This document shows positions 7,312 through 34,719 of a stretch of 36,004 nt of DNA, one piece after another; the first letter of the stretch is position 1; the number at the start of each line of letters is the position of its first letter. The stretch is from an uncultured Roseburia sp. (lineage in GTDB: Bacteria; Bacillota; Clostridia; Lachnospirales; Lachnospiraceae), in NCBI GenBank assembly GCA_947567625.1, contig CANONN010000035.1, positions 1 through 36,004 on the forward strand, written 5' to 3'. Below the pieces are notes generated by a model, which was not told the DNA's origin, ran no database searches, and saw only the letters and a program-made list of their open reading frames with translations. The translations under genes were made by a program, and so were the position numbers.

Positions 7312-8109
7312 TCATATGCAAATCAACTCCGACGGTGCGTCCCGCCTGGCAATCTGTATCGGAAAATCTGCCCCCCGGTATGGATTTTCTCCCATGGTGA
7401 TCTCTAACCGCACGGTCTCATAGGCAAGCTGTGGATAATTGTTCTCCTTGCTCAGATGCCCCAGCAAAATCGATTTGAAGTTATCGTGCAAAAGCTTGCC
7501 CAGCAGCTGCCCGCTGCGCTCGTTCGACAGATGCCCCAGCTCCCCCAGTATACGCCGTTTTAGCGGGTACGGATAACTGCCGGCCTGTAACATATGCACA
7601 TCATGGTTGGCCTCGAGAAGGATCGCGTCGAGATGCTGAAGCCTGGAAATGATCGCATCATCATATGTGCCCAGATCTGTGATTACGGCCATGCTTTTAT
7701 CCTCTCTGCTCATCTTGTAGGCAACCGGTTCCGCCGCGTCATGCGATATGGAAATCGGTTCGATCGTCATATCACCGATCTGAAAGGATACATCGGGTGT
7801 GACCGGATGAAACAGGCTTTCATCTACTTTTCCCACAGACTTTGTATGTAAAATGCCCCGCATCGTACCGGGCGTCGTGTAGATGGGGATGCCGTACCGC
7901 CTGGCCAAAACTCCCAGCCCGGCAATATGGTCAATATGTTCATGGGTGATAAGGATTCCCTGTATCTCCTCCGCCTTAAGCCCAATCCCTTGCAGGCCCT
8001 GTTCCACCCGCCTGCCGCTGATACCGGCATCCACCAGCAAGTGACAGCGATCGGTACCCGCATAGATACAGTTCCCGCTGCTGCCGCTTGCAATACTGCA
8101 TAGTTCCAT
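7312..8109 (-). CDS. walJ: MBL-fold hydrolase, WalJ/YycJ type
   Basis: This is a metallo-beta-lactamase-fold protein of 265 residues, the length of WalJ/YycJ proteins, some of which are reported as DNA exonucleases. The sequence shows the SIASGSSGNC start, the metal-binding THEHIDH motif, a downstream ISHDAAEPV histidine, the VITDLG aspartate, LLEANHD, and the late GHLSKEN histidine. In-frame ATGs exist at 8205 and 8121, but GGAG with a six-base spacer points to 8109, and the longer versions would run through a structured leader. It follows the FtsA-like gene and precedes the ACT/UPF0210 pair. Placement near polA fits a DNA-related role, but that is inference; B. subtilis walJ instead sits beside walRK. 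Confidence 0.88.
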   Translation of the reverse strand: MELCSIASGSSGNCIYAGTDRCHLLVDAGISGRRVEQGLQGIGLKAEEIQGILITHEHIDHIAGLGVLARRYGIPIYTTPGTMRGILHTKSVGKVDESLFHPVTPDVSFQIGDMTIEPISISHDAAEPVAYKMSREDKSMAVITDLGTYDDAIISRLQHLDAILLEANHDVHMLQAGSYPYPLKRRILGELGHLSNERSGQLLGKLLHDNFKSILLGHLSKENNYPQLAYETVRLEITMGENPYRGADFPIQIARRDAPSELICI

Positions 8110-8207
8110 AGTTTGCTCCATTTCTGCGCTGTTTTTTGCGCATATCGAGTTTGTGGCAAGCAACGCGCAGACACAAATCTCGCGATTGAAAATTTTAATT
8201 TTCAATC
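8110..8207 (-). promoter_or_regulatory. Three-hairpin 5' leader of walJ
   Basis: Read on the minus strand, three stem-loops follow each other between the FtsA-like stop and the walJ start. The first has arms GATTGAAAATT and AATTTTCAATC (8184-8207). The second has CGAG-A-TTTGTG pairing with CACAAACTCG. The third has TGCGC and GCGCA around an A-rich loop, next to the ATGGAG ribosome site. The same order, spacing and loop sequence occur before the ABC exporter at 23179-23275, with compensatory base changes in the stems. Confidence 0.7.
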
Positions 8208-8208
8208 T

Positions 8209-11200
8209 TTAGTCTCTCTCTTTCCAGCGAAGCTCGATCTTGTCGCCTTCCTTTAATTCGTCCGTATATTTTGCCTGGAAACCGTTGTGCAGGGTCACAA
8301 TCTCTCTCCCCCTCGCCTCCGAAAGGTCAAACTCATAGACGTCAAACACATTCACAAAAATGTATTCCTTCCTGCCCTTAAGTGTCACCGATTCCCCGTT
8401 GATAAAAATATGAAGTTCGGTGGCTTGCGCATCCGGCCGCTCGGTGGTTCCAGATTTATTCCCGCTATTGCCCGGTGCTTTGATTGCTTTTGCTGTCGGT
8501 GCTTCTATCCTTGCTTCCTGCCGTGACGGCGCCGATACGAACGGTTGTTTTACCGCTTCTGGCTTAGGCGCTTGCCACACGGACGACGGCTTCAACGCTT
8601 CCGGTTGCGCCTCCCGCCTCACGGACAACAGTACATTCTGCGGCTTCTCTGATTCTGGTTCCGCCTCCCGCCTCACGGATGCCGACACGGACGGCTTCTC
8701 TGCCGCCACCGGCGCTGCCAGTGATTCTATCTTTGATTCCTGCCACAATGGCGCCGACAGGGACGGCTGGTTTTCCGCTTCTGTCTTAGGCTCCTGGCTC
8801 ACTGGCGCTGATACCGGCGGCTGGTTCACGGTCTCTGGCTCTGCCTCTCGCCATACTGGCGCTGTTACCGACGGCTGGTTCTCTGTCTCTGGTCCCGCCT
8901 CTCGCCATACCGGCGCTGATACCGGCAGCTGGTTCACGGTCTCCGGTTCCGCCTCTCGCCATACTGACGTTGATACCGACGGTTCTCTCTCCGTCTCCGC
9001 CTGTGGCTCGCGCTTCACGGTTTCCGGCGATCGTTTCACGGTCTCCGGTTCCGCCTCTCGCCATACTGACGTTGATACCGACGGTTCTCTCTCCGTCTCC
9101 GCCTGTGGCTCGCGCTTCACGGTTTCCGGCGATCGTTTCACGGTCTCCGGTTCCGCCTCTCGCCGCACTGGCGCTGATACCGACGGCCGTTTCACGGTCT
9201 CCGGTTCCGCTTCTCGTCTGCCGGACGCTGGCGTCATCGCCGCTTCTGCCTCCACATCCCGCCGCATCGAATCCGGCGCCGTCGGCTGTTTTACTGCCCC
9301 TGGCTCTCTGCGATCTGCTTGCGTCGCCGCCGGCCGTGCCAAGCCCTGCCCGGACGCCCCCAAAGCGCCCGATTGCAGCATGGTGATCAATTCCTCAACA
9401 TTCCCCGGCTCCTGTTCACGCACCGGCTCTGCGGCAGGCGCCGCCGCGCTCTCTGCCTCCGGCTCTTTTTCCTGTTTGGCTTCCTGCTGCTCTTTCTCCT
9501 TTGCTTTCTGAATCATTCTGGCCCGCAGCTCGTCATGCAGCCGCTCCATATCCTCCAGAATCGATACGGCACTGCCGCGCGCCGCCGGCCCACGCTCTGT
9601 CTTACTTGCCGCCCCTCTCTCTTTGGCGCGGTCCTCGCGCCCTGTCGACTCCCGGGTTACACGCTCCCTCCTCGGCTGTCTCTCTTCCTGCTTTGTCCCC
9701 TTATCTTCGGGTTTCGGCGGCTCCTGTTTCACACGCCGCTCGGGCTGCGCGTTTAGCTCACGGCCGGTCAGCTTCTGTGTTTGCAGCGCTCCTGCCGCGG
9801 AGGCTCCCGAGATACCGTATGTCTTATACTCCTCCGGCAAATCCGGGTCCGTCACGATCTCCGCCAGCATACCGTTTAACGTTTCCGCCGCCTCGGCCGC
9901 CTGTTTTTGCACCTTTTCCAGCTCTTCCTGGGTCACGGCCGGCTGCGCCGTCTCCGGCGTCAAATCCCTGCGCCACTCGGCCGGCTCCACATAAGCGGCG
10001 CCGTAGGAGAGTACCACCCACTCAATACTAAAATTTTCATAGATCAACGTCTCAAAGGTCGCCGGACGATTATTGACCATGATCTCATGCTCGGTATCCA
10101 GCTCCACATCCATAAACTCCACCAGCTGCCCCACCGTATAGAAGCCTCTGGTCTCGATCTTGTCGTTTTCCTCGATCTGATAGGACGGCAGCTCCAGACT
10201 GCCGTTGACCTCCAAAAATCTTGGGCAGCGCACCACCTTGCCGTTGACGATAAACGCTACCGAAGCGCCGCTGTACTCCTCGAGCTGCTCTAGCGTACAC
10301 GCGGCGTCCTCCCCCTGTGTGGAGGGTTCTATTATAATATCGCTGTTCGGTTCCAACGGGGTATTGATATTGGCCGGACGGTCATTCATGAAAATAACCG
10401 CGGATTCTCCCGGCTTTCCTCTGACCACCCGCGTCGCACCGTCAACCGTAAACGAAAGCTCCTTTCCTCTCTTCGGGAACAAATCCTCATTCGGGAAACC
10501 GGCAGCCAGCGCCACATCCACCACGGTCAGCTTATTGTTGTCATATAATTTGACGCGCTCGCCGTTAAACCGCACCATGATAAAGCTGTTCTTCTGATCG
10601 AAATAATTGAGGCATATGCCGATCGGCGTCACCAAGAGAGGATCTTTCTCGATCTCCTCCTGCTCAAAAATGACCTCCTGCAGCACTTCCTCCCCGCGGA
10701 GCGCCACCCGTTCCTCGGGAAGATCGAGCTTTTGGGCCAGCTTTTCCGTATAGCCGTGTATTTTTCCGCCACCGCCGACGATAAATGTCGCGCTGACCGT
10801 CTTATCGCCGTTTAGCTCCTTGATCTTAGCCGCCACCTCGGTTGTCATTCTCTCGACCACCGGCTCGGTCAGCTCCCAGACATCCTCCGCCGGGATCGTG
10901 TGCTCGATCAGCATAATGTCCTTGTATACAATATCTTCTCCCTTACCGCTCGCGGCCTTGATGCTCTCGGCGGTCCTAAAATCCACGAGATAATTCTGCA
11001 CGATCAGCTCCGTGATCTCATCGCCGGCCAGCGGAATCATGCCGTAGGCAATGATGCTGCCGTCTCTGGTAATACAGATATCGGAGGTTCCCGCGCCGAT
11101 ATCGACAAGCGCGATATTCAGCAGGCGGAAATTCTCTGGAATCGCCACATTGATCGCGGCAATCGGCTCTAACGTCATGTTGGCGACCGACAGGCCCGCA

Positions 11201-22936: not shown

Positions 22937-23031
22937 CTTGCCCTGACTGCTGCAATGTAATCCGGCTCTTGCCCCGATGGTTGCGATACCTCATCCGGCT
23001 CTTGCCTGAATTGTTGCGATGTATCATCTAG
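22937..23031. repeat. Three tandem 31-33-bp repeats in the nrdD 5' UTR
   Basis: Three imperfect units, each starting CTTGCC (22937, 22968, 23001), are spaced 31 and 33 bases apart. Each carries a GTTGCGAT-like core and two end in ATCCGGCT. They fill the stretch between the nrdD promoter and its start codon, so they should be transcribed as leader RNA. I see no simple hairpin in each unit and no known riboswitch motif. Confidence 0.7.
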
Positions 23032-23121: not shown

Positions 23122-23178
23122 TATAATATTAACATATCCGCAGAAAAAAACAACTGGATTTACGCGATTGGAGGACTA

Positions 23179-23275
23179 GTGTGAAAAATACCTTTTTCAC
23201 ACGCAAATTTGTGTCTGCGCGCACTTGTCACAAATTTGTTATGCGCAAAAAACGTGCGCAGAAATGGGGACTTTT
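23179..23275 (+). promoter_or_regulatory. Three-hairpin 5' leader of the ABC exporter
   Basis: Stem 1 has arms GTGTGAAAAA (23179-23188) and TTTTTCACAC (23193-23202). Stem 2 has AAATTTGTG (23205-23213) and CACAAATTT (23229-23237), extendable by further pairs. Stem 3 has TGCGCA (23242-23247) and TGCGCA (23255-23260) around an A-rich loop. The ribosome site GGGGA follows directly, with ATG at 23276. The element matches the walJ leader at 8110-8207 in order, spacing and loop sequence. Confidence 0.72.
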
Positions 23276-25024
23276 ATGTTAAAGACACTTGGGGCACAGA
23301 TCAGGGAGTTTCGACGCGATTCTTTGATCACACCCATTTTTATGGTACTTGAAGTGTGGATGGAAACGATTATTCCTTTTTTGATGGCGTCCATCATCGA
23401 CGACGGCGTCAGTGTCGGCAATATGCGCCACATATATACCGTCGGCGCCTGCATGGTCGCCGCCGCCTGTTTTTCGCTGTTTTGCGGCATCATGGGCGGC
23501 CGCTACGGCGCAAGGGCCTCGACCGGTTTTGCCCGCAATCTGCGAAAGGCCATGTACAAAAATATTCAGACCTTCTCCTTTTCCAATATCGACAAATTCA
23601 GTACGGCCGGGCTTGTGACGCGGCTTACGACAGACGTCACCAATGTCCAAAATGCGTACCAGATGATCTTGCGCATGTGCGTGCGCTCGCCGATCACTTT
23701 AATCTGCGCCATGGCCATGGCGTTTTTTATCAGTCCGCGCCTTGCCAGCGTCTATCTCGCCGCAGTCGTCGTCCTTGGCGTCATTCTCGCAATCATCACG
23801 GTGCGGGCGCACCATTATTTTATGGAAGCTTTTCCCAAATATGACGACCTGAACGCCTCCGTGCAGGAGAATGTCTCGGCGATCCGCGTCGTCAAAGCCT
23901 ATGTGCGCGAGGAACACGAGAAAAAACGCTTCACCGCCGCCAGCGACAATATCTGCCGGATGTTTTTGAAAGCGGAGCGCATCATCGCTTTCAACAGCCC
24001 CGTCATGCAGATTACCGTCTACAGCTGTATCCTGATCATCAGCTGGCTCGGCGCCAAAATGGTGGTGGGCAGCAGCCTTACCACCGGCGAGCTGATGAGC
24101 CTTCTTACCTATTGTATGAATATCATGATGAGCCTGATGATGCTGTCCATGGTATTTGTCATGATCACCATGAGCATCGCCAGCGGCAGGCGCATCTGCG
24201 AAGTCCTGGAGGAAAAGAGCGATATCGTAAACCCCCAAAACCCGGATTTTTGTGTGCCGGACGGCAGCATTACCTTTGAGCATGTCACGTTCCGCTACAA
24301 TAAGACTTCGGCAAGGCCGGTACTGGACGATATCAACCTCGCCATACATTCCGGCGAGACCATCGGCATCATCGGCGGCACCGGAAGCTCCAAATCCTCC
24401 CTGGTAAACTTAATCAGCCGCCTCTATGATGTATCAGACGGCAGGGTGCTTGTCGGCGGCAAGGATGTGCGCACTTATGACCTTGACACGCTGCGCAATG
24501 AAGTCGCGGTCGTCCTGCAAAACAACGTCCTCTTTTCGGGCACCATCTATGAAAACCTGCGCTGGGGCAAAAAAGACGCCACGGACGAAGAGTGCAAGCG
24601 CGCCTGCCGTCTCGCCTGCGCCGACGAGTTTATCGAGCGTTTTCCCGACGGCTACAACACCTATATCACACAGGGCGGCTCCAACGTCTCCGGCGGTCAA
24701 AAACAGCGCCTGTGCATCGCGCGCGCCCTCTTAAAGCAGCCGAAAATACTGATTCTCGACGACAGCACCAGCGCCGTCGATACCGCCACGGACCAAAAAA
24801 TCCGCCGCGCCTTTTTGCAGGAGATTCCAGATACTACCAAGCTGATCATCGCCCAGCGCATCGCCTCCGTGCAGGAGGCAGACCACATTATCGTGCTGGA
24901 AAACGGGACGGTCAACGGCTTTGGGACGCACGAGGAATTACTGGCAGAAAACGCAATCTACCGCGACGTCTACGAGTCGCAGACCGGCGGCAGCAGAGAC
25001 TTTGACGAGGGAGGTGCGGCATAA
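23276..25024 (+). CDS. Heterodimeric ABC exporter, subunit with degenerate ATPase site
   Basis: This is a half-size ABC exporter: a six-helix membrane domain (about 1-300) fused to an ATPase domain (about 325-582). Walker A GGTGSSKSS (about 366), signature NVSGGQKQR (about 471) and Walker B ILILDDSTSAVD (about 491) are visible. The catalytic Glu after Walker B is Asp, and the switch His is Gln (IIAQRIASV), marking the degenerate-site subunit of a TM287/288-type pair. An upstream ATG at 23225 would extend it through the hairpin leader; GGGGA before 23276 favours the shorter 582-residue form. Its stop overlaps the next ATG by one base. The substrate is unknown; multidrug or lipid export is typical. 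Confidence 0.93.
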   Translation: MLKTLGAQIREFRRDSLITPIFMVLEVWMETIIPFLMASIIDDGVSVGNMRHIYTVGACMVAAACFSLFCGIMGGRYGARASTGFARNLRKAMYKNIQTFSFSNIDKFSTAGLVTRLTTDVTNVQNAYQMILRMCVRSPITLICAMAMAFFISPRLASVYLAAVVVLGVILAIITVRAHHYFMEAFPKYDDLNASVQENVSAIRVVKAYVREEHEKKRFTAASDNICRMFLKAERIIAFNSPVMQITVYSCILIISWLGAKMVVGSSLTTGELMSLLTYCMNIMMSLMMLSMVFVMITMSIASGRRICEVLEEKSDIVNPQNPDFCVPDGSITFEHVTFRYNKTSARPVLDDINLAIHSGETIGIIGGTGSSKSSLVNLISRLYDVSDGRVLVGGKDVRTYDLDTLRNEVAVVLQNNVLFSGTIYENLRWGKKDATDEECKRACRLACADEFIERFPDGYNTYITQGGSNVSGGQKQRLCIARALLKQPKILILDDSTSAVDTATDQKIRRAFLQEIPDTTKLIIAQRIASVQEADHIIVLENGTVNGFGTHEELLAENAIYRDVYESQTGGSRDFDEGGAA

Positions 25025-34313: not shown

Positions 34314-34362
34314 TTTAATCTCCATTCCTGCGCACTCCCTGCGCATATTATGTTTGTGTGTC
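34314..34362 (-). promoter_or_regulatory. Partial copy of the hairpin leader before aspS
   Basis: Read on the minus strand, the last part of the aspS leader holds CACAAAC followed by TATGCGCA, a GGGAG loop, TGCGCAG and AATGGAG, ending at the start codon. This repeats the third stem and ribosome site of the walJ and ABC exporter leaders. As in both of those, an in-frame ATG lies exactly 12 bases before the chosen start. Stems 1 and 2 are not recognisable here. Confidence 0.55.
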
Positions 34363-34423: not shown

Positions 34424-34719
34424 AAAAACCCCGGGATACGAAACATTGTATCCCGGGGCGAATAAATCTAACTAGAATATCCGCGGTACCACCCGCTTTG
34501 AAATCCGTCCCTTGCGGACGTCTTTCCACTTCCTCATGCTTAACGCGCATCACGTACCGGCCTACCGTCTGTCTTTCACAGATACCTTACCGCACACATT
34601 CGACCGGTCAGCTCCAGAGTGTTCCCGCTTTCTCCTCCTGCGAACGGTGTTCTCAGTCGGTGACACCGTATTCCTGTCGCTCTCTGAAAAAAGGAGTCTC
34701 TTTCTTCGCCTTTTGCTAT
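34424..34719 (-). ncRNA. T-box leader of the aspS-gatCAB operon
   Basis: T-box RNAs bind a specific uncharged tRNA and then block a terminator. The minus-strand leader shows the T-box sequence GGTGGTACCGCGG (34481-34493). It is followed by a terminator with arms CCCCGGGATAC (34429-34439) and GTATCCCGGGG (34448-34458) and a T-run (34424-34428). Upstream are the AGAGAGC distal Stem I motif and CTCTGGAG. The specifier codon is not certain: AAC (34621-34623) lies just before CTCTGGAG, while GAC occurs at 34656-34658. The class is clear; the tRNA sensed could be tRNA-Asn or tRNA-Asp. Confidence 0.9.

Follow-up and report, generated by a model that had tools for sequence, protein, structure and literature searches.

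Mobile elements that spare their host usually choose intergenic DNA, terminators or tRNA genes. The REP/RAYT and IS200/IS605-derived palindromic elements have hairpin ends, lack inverted terminal repeats and insert strand-specifically. Rickettsia palindromic elements are mobile, insert without destroying the gene and sit inside reading frames, and group II introns are large self-splicing retroelements. In Thermosynechococcus elongatus, group II introns are inserted between two start codons of the intron ORF (PMC2882425, available text). In Streptococcus pneumoniae, the BOX, RUP and SPRITE elements are small structured interspersed repeats that are thought to be parasitic, are co-transcribed with genes and likely affect expression; in addition, a BOX element is located between T-box leaders (PMC3049150, available text).

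Here, we analysed a window of 36,004 nucleotides (the whole stretch of DNA under study) from an uncultured Roseburia sp. of the Lachnospiraceae, in which two leaders precede a walJ-like gene and an ABC exporter gene. The leaders are very probably copies of a family of nonautonomous mobile elements that target the Shine-Dalgarno (SD) sequence and restore the ribosome-binding site (RBS). Landing in the few bases between the RBS and the start codon, with the RBS left in place, is an unusual safe harbour. The element differs from the REP/RAYT and IS200/IS605 elements in its SD target and in the absence of a Y1 transposase from its own and several other carrier genomes, and from the Rickettsia elements in lying between the SD and the start codon. 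Its kind is known, namely the small structured interspersed repeat represented by BOX, RUP and SPRITE, and like these it is small, interspersed and highly structured (PMC3049150, available text). However, no counterpart was seen in the Lachnospiraceae element for the terminal inverted repeats of BOX and RUP, which pair with each other; the SD target and the restoration of the RBS are features of this element that the available text of PMC3049150 does not report for the three pneumococcal repeats. Like MITEs (e.g., MITEAba12; PMC6382973), it is short, nonautonomous and multicopy, but the terminal inverted repeats that MITEs have (PMC3049150, available text) were not seen. It also resembles the T. 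elongatus group II introns in being inserted at a translation start, although those are found at one kind of host ORF (PMC2882425, available text). What is new is where it inserts, between the SD and the start codon, together with its sense orientation and the RBS rebuilt behind it. The literature searched gave no description of a Lachnospiraceae repeat with an SD target, which is weak evidence of absence.

Two leaders and their repeat family

The first-pass annotation had described two leaders with the same three stems in the same order, and both were found where it had placed them, with the same three-hairpin layout. The gene name walJ comes from that annotation, and the basis here is the Pfam domains. 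The features of the window are as follows, with scores against covariance model R1 (for copies 1 and 2, window search with filters off).

7312 to 8109, minus strand: walJ-like gene of the metallo-beta-lactamase fold (265 aa; PF12706, PF00753), downstream of copy 1
8110 to 8118, minus strand: RBS/spacer GAGCAAACT from copy 1 to the walJ start codon (ATG at 8109-8107), with the +9 spacing seen in 139 of 204 copies
8119 to 8207, minus strand: copy 1, GATTGAAAATT subtype, with stem 1, stem 2 with the TCTGCGCG loop, stem 3 and an AAATG end; 103.2 bits, E 2.6e-20; site empty in 29 of 29 relatives examined
8208 to 8225, minus strand: native SD-like stretch GGAAAGAGAGAGACTAAA, located in the terminal part of the upstream ORF; copy 1 joins after it
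23166 to 23178, plus strand: native SD stretch GATTGGAGGACTA directly 5′ of copy 2, from the sequence and comparison with relatives
23179 to 23266, plus strand: copy 2, GTGTGAAAAAT subtype; 93.9 bits, E 2.5e-18; its 88 nt are identical to L016, L017 and L018 of the same genome
23267 to 23275, plus strand: RBS/spacer GGGACTTTT from copy 2 to the exporter start codon at 23276; GGACT is common to spacer and 5′ flank, and the relative L344 has GGAGGAACTTTATG without the element
23276 to 25024, plus strand: ABC exporter gene (Pfam ABC_membrane and ABC_tran), downstream of copy 2
34322 to 34347, minus strand: putative degenerate 3′ half of the element (hairpin 3 and AATGG) before aspS (ATG at 34313-34311); 16 bits

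It should be noted that R1 was trained on copies from the same genome, both window leaders among them: the training set comprised 28 of 35 parsed copies, the other seven being five from a divergent subtype that lacks stem 3 and two partial ones. The predicted fold gave three hairpins in both leaders, with z-scores of −3.76 and −4.63 against dinucleotide shuffles; over all folded sequences (both leaders, the aspS half and two relatives), z ranged from −2.65 to −7.2. A chance resemblance of the two leaders is so improbable, given their E-values and the hundreds of further copies, that it can be dismissed. Upstream of the exporter, at 22960-23025, there is also a 33-nt repeat in two tandem copies that are 79% alike.

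A 113-base query returned 60 match pieces in the 3.42-Mb draft genome. Merging 35 of these 60 pieces with 30 places found by R1 gave at least 47 distinct places, some of them partial, and this number is a lower bound. Five 123-nt copies are identical letter for letter, as are four 88-nt copies (including copy 2), and their flanks are unrelated; the family was thus amplified recently in this genome. Such dispersed and near-identical copies are expected of a small nonautonomous interspersed mobile repeat.

The subtypes share one layout: stem 1 is GTGTG, GATTG, GGTTG or GAGTG, each with its own complement, followed by stem 2 with a variable foot and by stem 3. Extra hairpins are nested inside the loops of some copies. 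For instance, L029, L031, L036, L037, L040 and L052-L054 carry nested palindromes of the AAAGCCATAATGGCTT type in loop 2 or of the AATGCGAACGTCGTTCGCAAT type in hairpin 3, which gives the impression that smaller palindromes inserted into the loops of the element. A conserved GTG-TGA mini-ORF at the 5′ end was considered and rejected, since the GATTG subtype does not have it. Meanwhile, eight copies of genome G040 (L232, L235, L236, L237, L238, L240, L242 and L245) have another hairpin directly 5′, of the GATTCCGC/GCGGAATC or TTGCGGC/GCCGCAA type with variants, that ends in CAT(G) and an SD-like stretch. It is probably a second hairpin-RBS repeat family stacked upstream of the element.

The results of the species distribution showed that the family is patchy within Lachnospiraceae. 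At E 0.01, there were matches in 27 of 117 genomes, the Roseburia genome included (25 of 63 of the genus, one of the family and one, weak at E 0.002, of the order; at most 34 candidates scored per genome), and six of the 25 same-genus carriers had weak matches only (E 3.6e-4 to 0.0024). With at most 10 candidates scored per genome, 24 of 397 genomes matched across the family, again including the Roseburia genome, which was the single match in a class-wide draw of 391 genomes. Among the matches listed (at least 80 named loci), the record titles were mostly Lachnospiraceae bacterium, and further titles were Roseburia, Acetatifactor, Parablautia, Hungatella, Eubacterium/Eubacteriaceae, Clostridiaceae, Clostridia and plain bacterium.

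A known RNA family was rejected: in the window and eight loci, nothing reached the gathering threshold of Rfam 15, and the best weak match (E 2.1) was on the opposite strand. Carriage by phages or plasmids was also rejected, the exact pattern being present in 0 viral contigs and 0 plasmids. In a phage collection, 18 records matched; all are human faecal contigs titled 'Bacteriophage sp.' that carry no annotation, and they may be of bacterial origin.

The compensatory changes noticed in stems 1 and 2 were confirmed and are found again in many other copies, and the conserved structure with covariation holds for all three stems. In 60 copies from relatives, 97.4% of cells were paired, with 128 double-changed cells against 38.1 in shuffles, and sliding the alignment lowered the pairing to 27-61%. 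There was no excess of further pair types in these copies (27 against 26.3), and an earlier measure, pairs changed on both sides, gave 7 against 5.2, a value reached by 69 of 500 shuffles. These 60 copies (59 distinct) came from model hits and their alignment was fitted to the model, while the changes are legible in the raw sequences; at least three of the sites (L317, L319 and L321) are also among the named loci. The named loci were otherwise kept out of the covariation evidence because their search pattern prescribes portions of stem 2, loop 2 and stem 3. In addition, stem 3 switches from TGCGC/GCGCA to a TGCCC/GGGCA type in four copies of one subtype (L282-L285).

Covarying structure is also a trait expected of a cis-regulatory leader RNA. 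The three stems would fit a host RNA of the riboswitch or attenuator type, marking a regulon and controlling translation through a choice of partner for the SD-adjacent arm, either in hairpin 3 or in loop 2. In many copies, some 7-11 nt of loop 2 (TCTGCGC) are complementary to the 3′ arm before the RBS (GCGCAGA); this pairing and stem 3 would be mutually exclusive. Its energy is matched across copies (−16.71 against −15.82 kcal/mol, with 0 of 200 shuffles as strong; 117 of 141 copies parsed, 86 distinct combinations). Some copies retain stem 3 alone and others the loop-2 pairing alone, so a switch between the two pairings is possible. However, the loop-2/3′-arm covariation showed no excess over shuffles, and the hairpin-3 control of the energy test likewise gave 0 of 200, so that relatedness may explain the matching.

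Position between the Shine-Dalgarno sequence and the start codon

The element lies in the direction of the gene, in the arrangement SD, element, SD, start codon. Among 234 distinct copies (kept from 247), an ORF of at least 60 aa, or 40 aa if cut by the end of the stretch, begins 4-23 nt behind the element in 204, while the other 30 are not followed by an ORF of 60 aa or more. In an earlier set, 120 of 136 copies had an ORF behind them; at random positions the count was 1284 of 6950 (18.5%), and on the opposite strand it was 9 of 139. Of 232 copies, 172 had an SD-like 4-mer in the 14 nt 5′ of the element; in four windows lying further upstream, the counts were 33, 50, 41 and 38. The left flank also varies by subtype: in one copy set, TA precedes GTGTG (6/6) and AA precedes GATTG (9/9), with exceptions elsewhere. 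Furthermore, in 157 of the 226 copies usable for this count, an open frame on the same strand terminates no more than 150 nt upstream, and thus many copies are inside likely operons.

The first-pass annotation had pointed to an in-frame ATG 12 bases before the likely start in the two leaders and in a third copy before aspS. This ATG is real in all three, but over the 204 copies the family keeps the distance and not the frame: the offset is +9 (in frame) in 139, +8 in 26 and +10 in 16. The fixed distance therefore looks like RBS spacing rather than a used upstream start, and in the alignment with 29 relatives the walJ start is the second ATG.

The downstream genes share no pathway; they are not functionally related, and the element is not kept at the same genes. 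When 30 of 37 downstream proteins were scanned, 26 matched Pfam families of diverse functions, among them two aminoacyl-tRNA synthetases, transketolase, transaldolase, shikimate kinase, DeoC, AIR synthase, four ABC proteins and a DNA methylase. In the Roseburia genome, the folded leader precedes class II and class I aminoacyl-tRNA synthetase, transketolase and RpiB genes. Two copies of this genome (L027, 488-596 and 1498-1586) stand before neighbouring transaldolase and transketolase genes.

The predicted accessibility from the SD to the ATG, computed on 100 of 161 copies, was barely higher with the element (0.556) than with shuffled elements (0.513; higher in 64 of 100) or with upstream DNA in its place (0.524). 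The SD is thus not clearly sequestered in the predicted fold, and the slightly more open stretch is in line with a near-neutral insertion. The suggestion of a regulatory RNA controlling translation starts was not substantiated: besides the unrelated functions of the genes, the insertions are confined to particular lineages, the SD shows no clear sequestration, and the family holds constant neither the frame nor the upstream ATG. Many relatives also have no copy of the element at all, and a host cis-regulatory RNA is an unlikely reading of the family. Nevertheless, an effect of the element on translation is possible. A folded leader before tens of unrelated genes may change translation and mRNA stability genome-wide, and the filled and empty sites are a natural series for measuring such an effect.

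Filled and empty sites, junctions and candidate movers

The idea that the leaders might be mobile was borne out by the many near-identical copies, the patchy distribution, the empty orthologous sites and the tandem stacking. The walJ site has no element in 29 of 29 same-genus relatives examined (of 60 with a match); in most of them only a few bases separate the end of the upstream gene from the walJ ATG, and TGGAAAGAG likewise forms the end of this gene in 15 of 28 relatives compared. The exporter site is likewise without the element in 23 of 23 relatives examined (of 56 with a match at E 1e-150), many of which have a promoter-like TTGACA...TATAA and a plain SD of the AAGGATGTGA or AAGGAAGTGA type. 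Meanwhile, nine and six copies were examined in the sister genomes G006 and G043, respectively, five of them common to both. The remaining four G006 sites are empty in G043, where the DNA is continuous through the site at 93-94% identity; for example, G043 has GGAGGGAAACTATG and G006 has AAGGGAAA-element-GGGAAAGTATG. One of these four, L230, is a 5′-truncated copy, so its empty G043 partner could be a deletion. The sixth G043 site was not found in G006. The presence of both occupied and empty orthologous sites is expected of an interspersed mobile repeat.

The element is about 75-135 nt long (about 90 in the window), with three hairpins. No terminal inverted repeats were seen by eye, the 5′ ends being GTGTGAAAAA or GATTGAAAAT and the 3′ end GCGCAGAAATG. 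It lies in one orientation, just 3′ of an SD and before the start codon, and either its 3′ end carries an SD-like tail (GGGGATTT or GGAGAAAA) or a duplicate of the target SD and spacer comes after it; thus, the gene would keep an RBS at the normal distance. Recent copies of the Roseburia genome have a near-constant 3′ tail, GGAGAAAATT or GGGGATTTTT, up to the ATG.

The duplication set kept 195 of 247 copies (the input was 141 earlier copies and 60 copies), and 11 of the 195 with tandem-like 5′ flanks were set aside. A fixed-offset test (141 of 187 kept as distinct, with intact ends and enough flank) was weak, and a variable-length test was used instead. In 21 of 184 copies, 6 nt or more of the 5′ flank recurred exactly and right behind the element (8.5 expected, with 0 of 1000 shuffles reaching this count), and in 12 of 184 the repeat was 7 nt or longer (2.9 expected); orthologous copies were counted individually here and in the shuffles. 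The duplications are thus variable in length (6-9 nt) and present in a minority of copies. They were clearest in the G006/G043 clade (5 of 11, one orthologous pair among them), and in the Roseburia genome alone they were no more frequent than in shuffles. Either the target was duplicated and partly overwritten, or insertion went through an SD-like core common to element end and target. Both schemes put an SD at each end and thereby allow tandem copies; a new SD that is hit again would give the observed stacks, such as L017, L305 and L308. In the orthologous copies L217 (G043) and L224 (G006), the duplicated flanks are out of step (AGGAAAAA twice and AGGAGAAA twice), which would reflect either independent insertions at one SD or concerted change.

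A single-strand element of the IS200/IS605 or RAYT/REP-like type, with subterminal hairpins as the recognition sites of a Y1 transposase and insertion 3′ of a short SD-like target, would account for hairpins at both ends without terminal inverted repeats, the one orientation, the subtype-linked left flank and the likeness of the 3′ end to the target. However, IS200/IS605-type elements are not known to duplicate their target, and it is duplicated in some copies here. Y1 transposases occur in 10 of 25 same-genus carriers, but PF01797 is about as common in genus members without an element match (12 of 38), and it had no match in the Roseburia genome (a draft, 93% complete) or in G006, G043, G040, G046, G032 and G059. 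A Y1 mover, which does not track the element, was therefore rejected, and the single-strand reading is improbable, slightly more so than the regulatory one.

Alternatively, a structured RNA could have been inserted at the SD in mRNA sense and copied by a reverse transcriptase. The sense orientation, the RNA-type covariation and the 6-9 nt duplications are compatible with such RNA-mediated spread, and PF00078 is present in 14 of 25 same-genus carriers, with two matches in the Roseburia genome. However, the domain is about as frequent in genus members without the element (16 of 38) and had no match in the carriers G059, G040, G043, G046 and G032. A reverse transcriptase was thus also rejected as the mover, and we consider this route less probable still than the single-strand one. 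The drafts are incomplete, and a past moving enzyme may have been lost.

For an SD-targeting and RBS-restoring element, we infer that an enzyme acting in trans moves it and that its insertion has a nearly neutral effect on the gene. The likeness between element end and target suggests that this enzyme recognises an SD-like sequence. It is conceivable, though we hold it at somewhat less than even chances, that the machinery recognises the SD itself through the SD-like sequence at the element's own end, and that each insertion recreates the RBS and the next target. If so, such an element could spread through operons one gene after another with little harm to the host, while the RNA fold it carries would serve as a portable module of translation initiation.

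The partial copy before aspS

A third, partial copy had been proposed before aspS, and this was upheld in part. It has a perfect hairpin 3, AATGG and a few bases that resemble the last part of stem 2; stem 1 is missing, and the score of 16 bits (E 0.14 with R1) is below that of the antisense of the copy 2 palindrome (22.5 bits). The pattern TATGCGCA-N2..14-TGCGCAGNAATGG occurs at seven places in the genome and the reversed pattern at none. On these grounds, the aspS copy is best called a weak, putatively degenerate 3′ half of the element.

In addition, there is a T-box leader before aspS at 34451-34715 (minus strand; E 1.2e-12, 60.4 bits), which the default Rfam scan missed because its score is below the gathering threshold. 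The degenerate half sits between this T-box leader and the aspS start codon.
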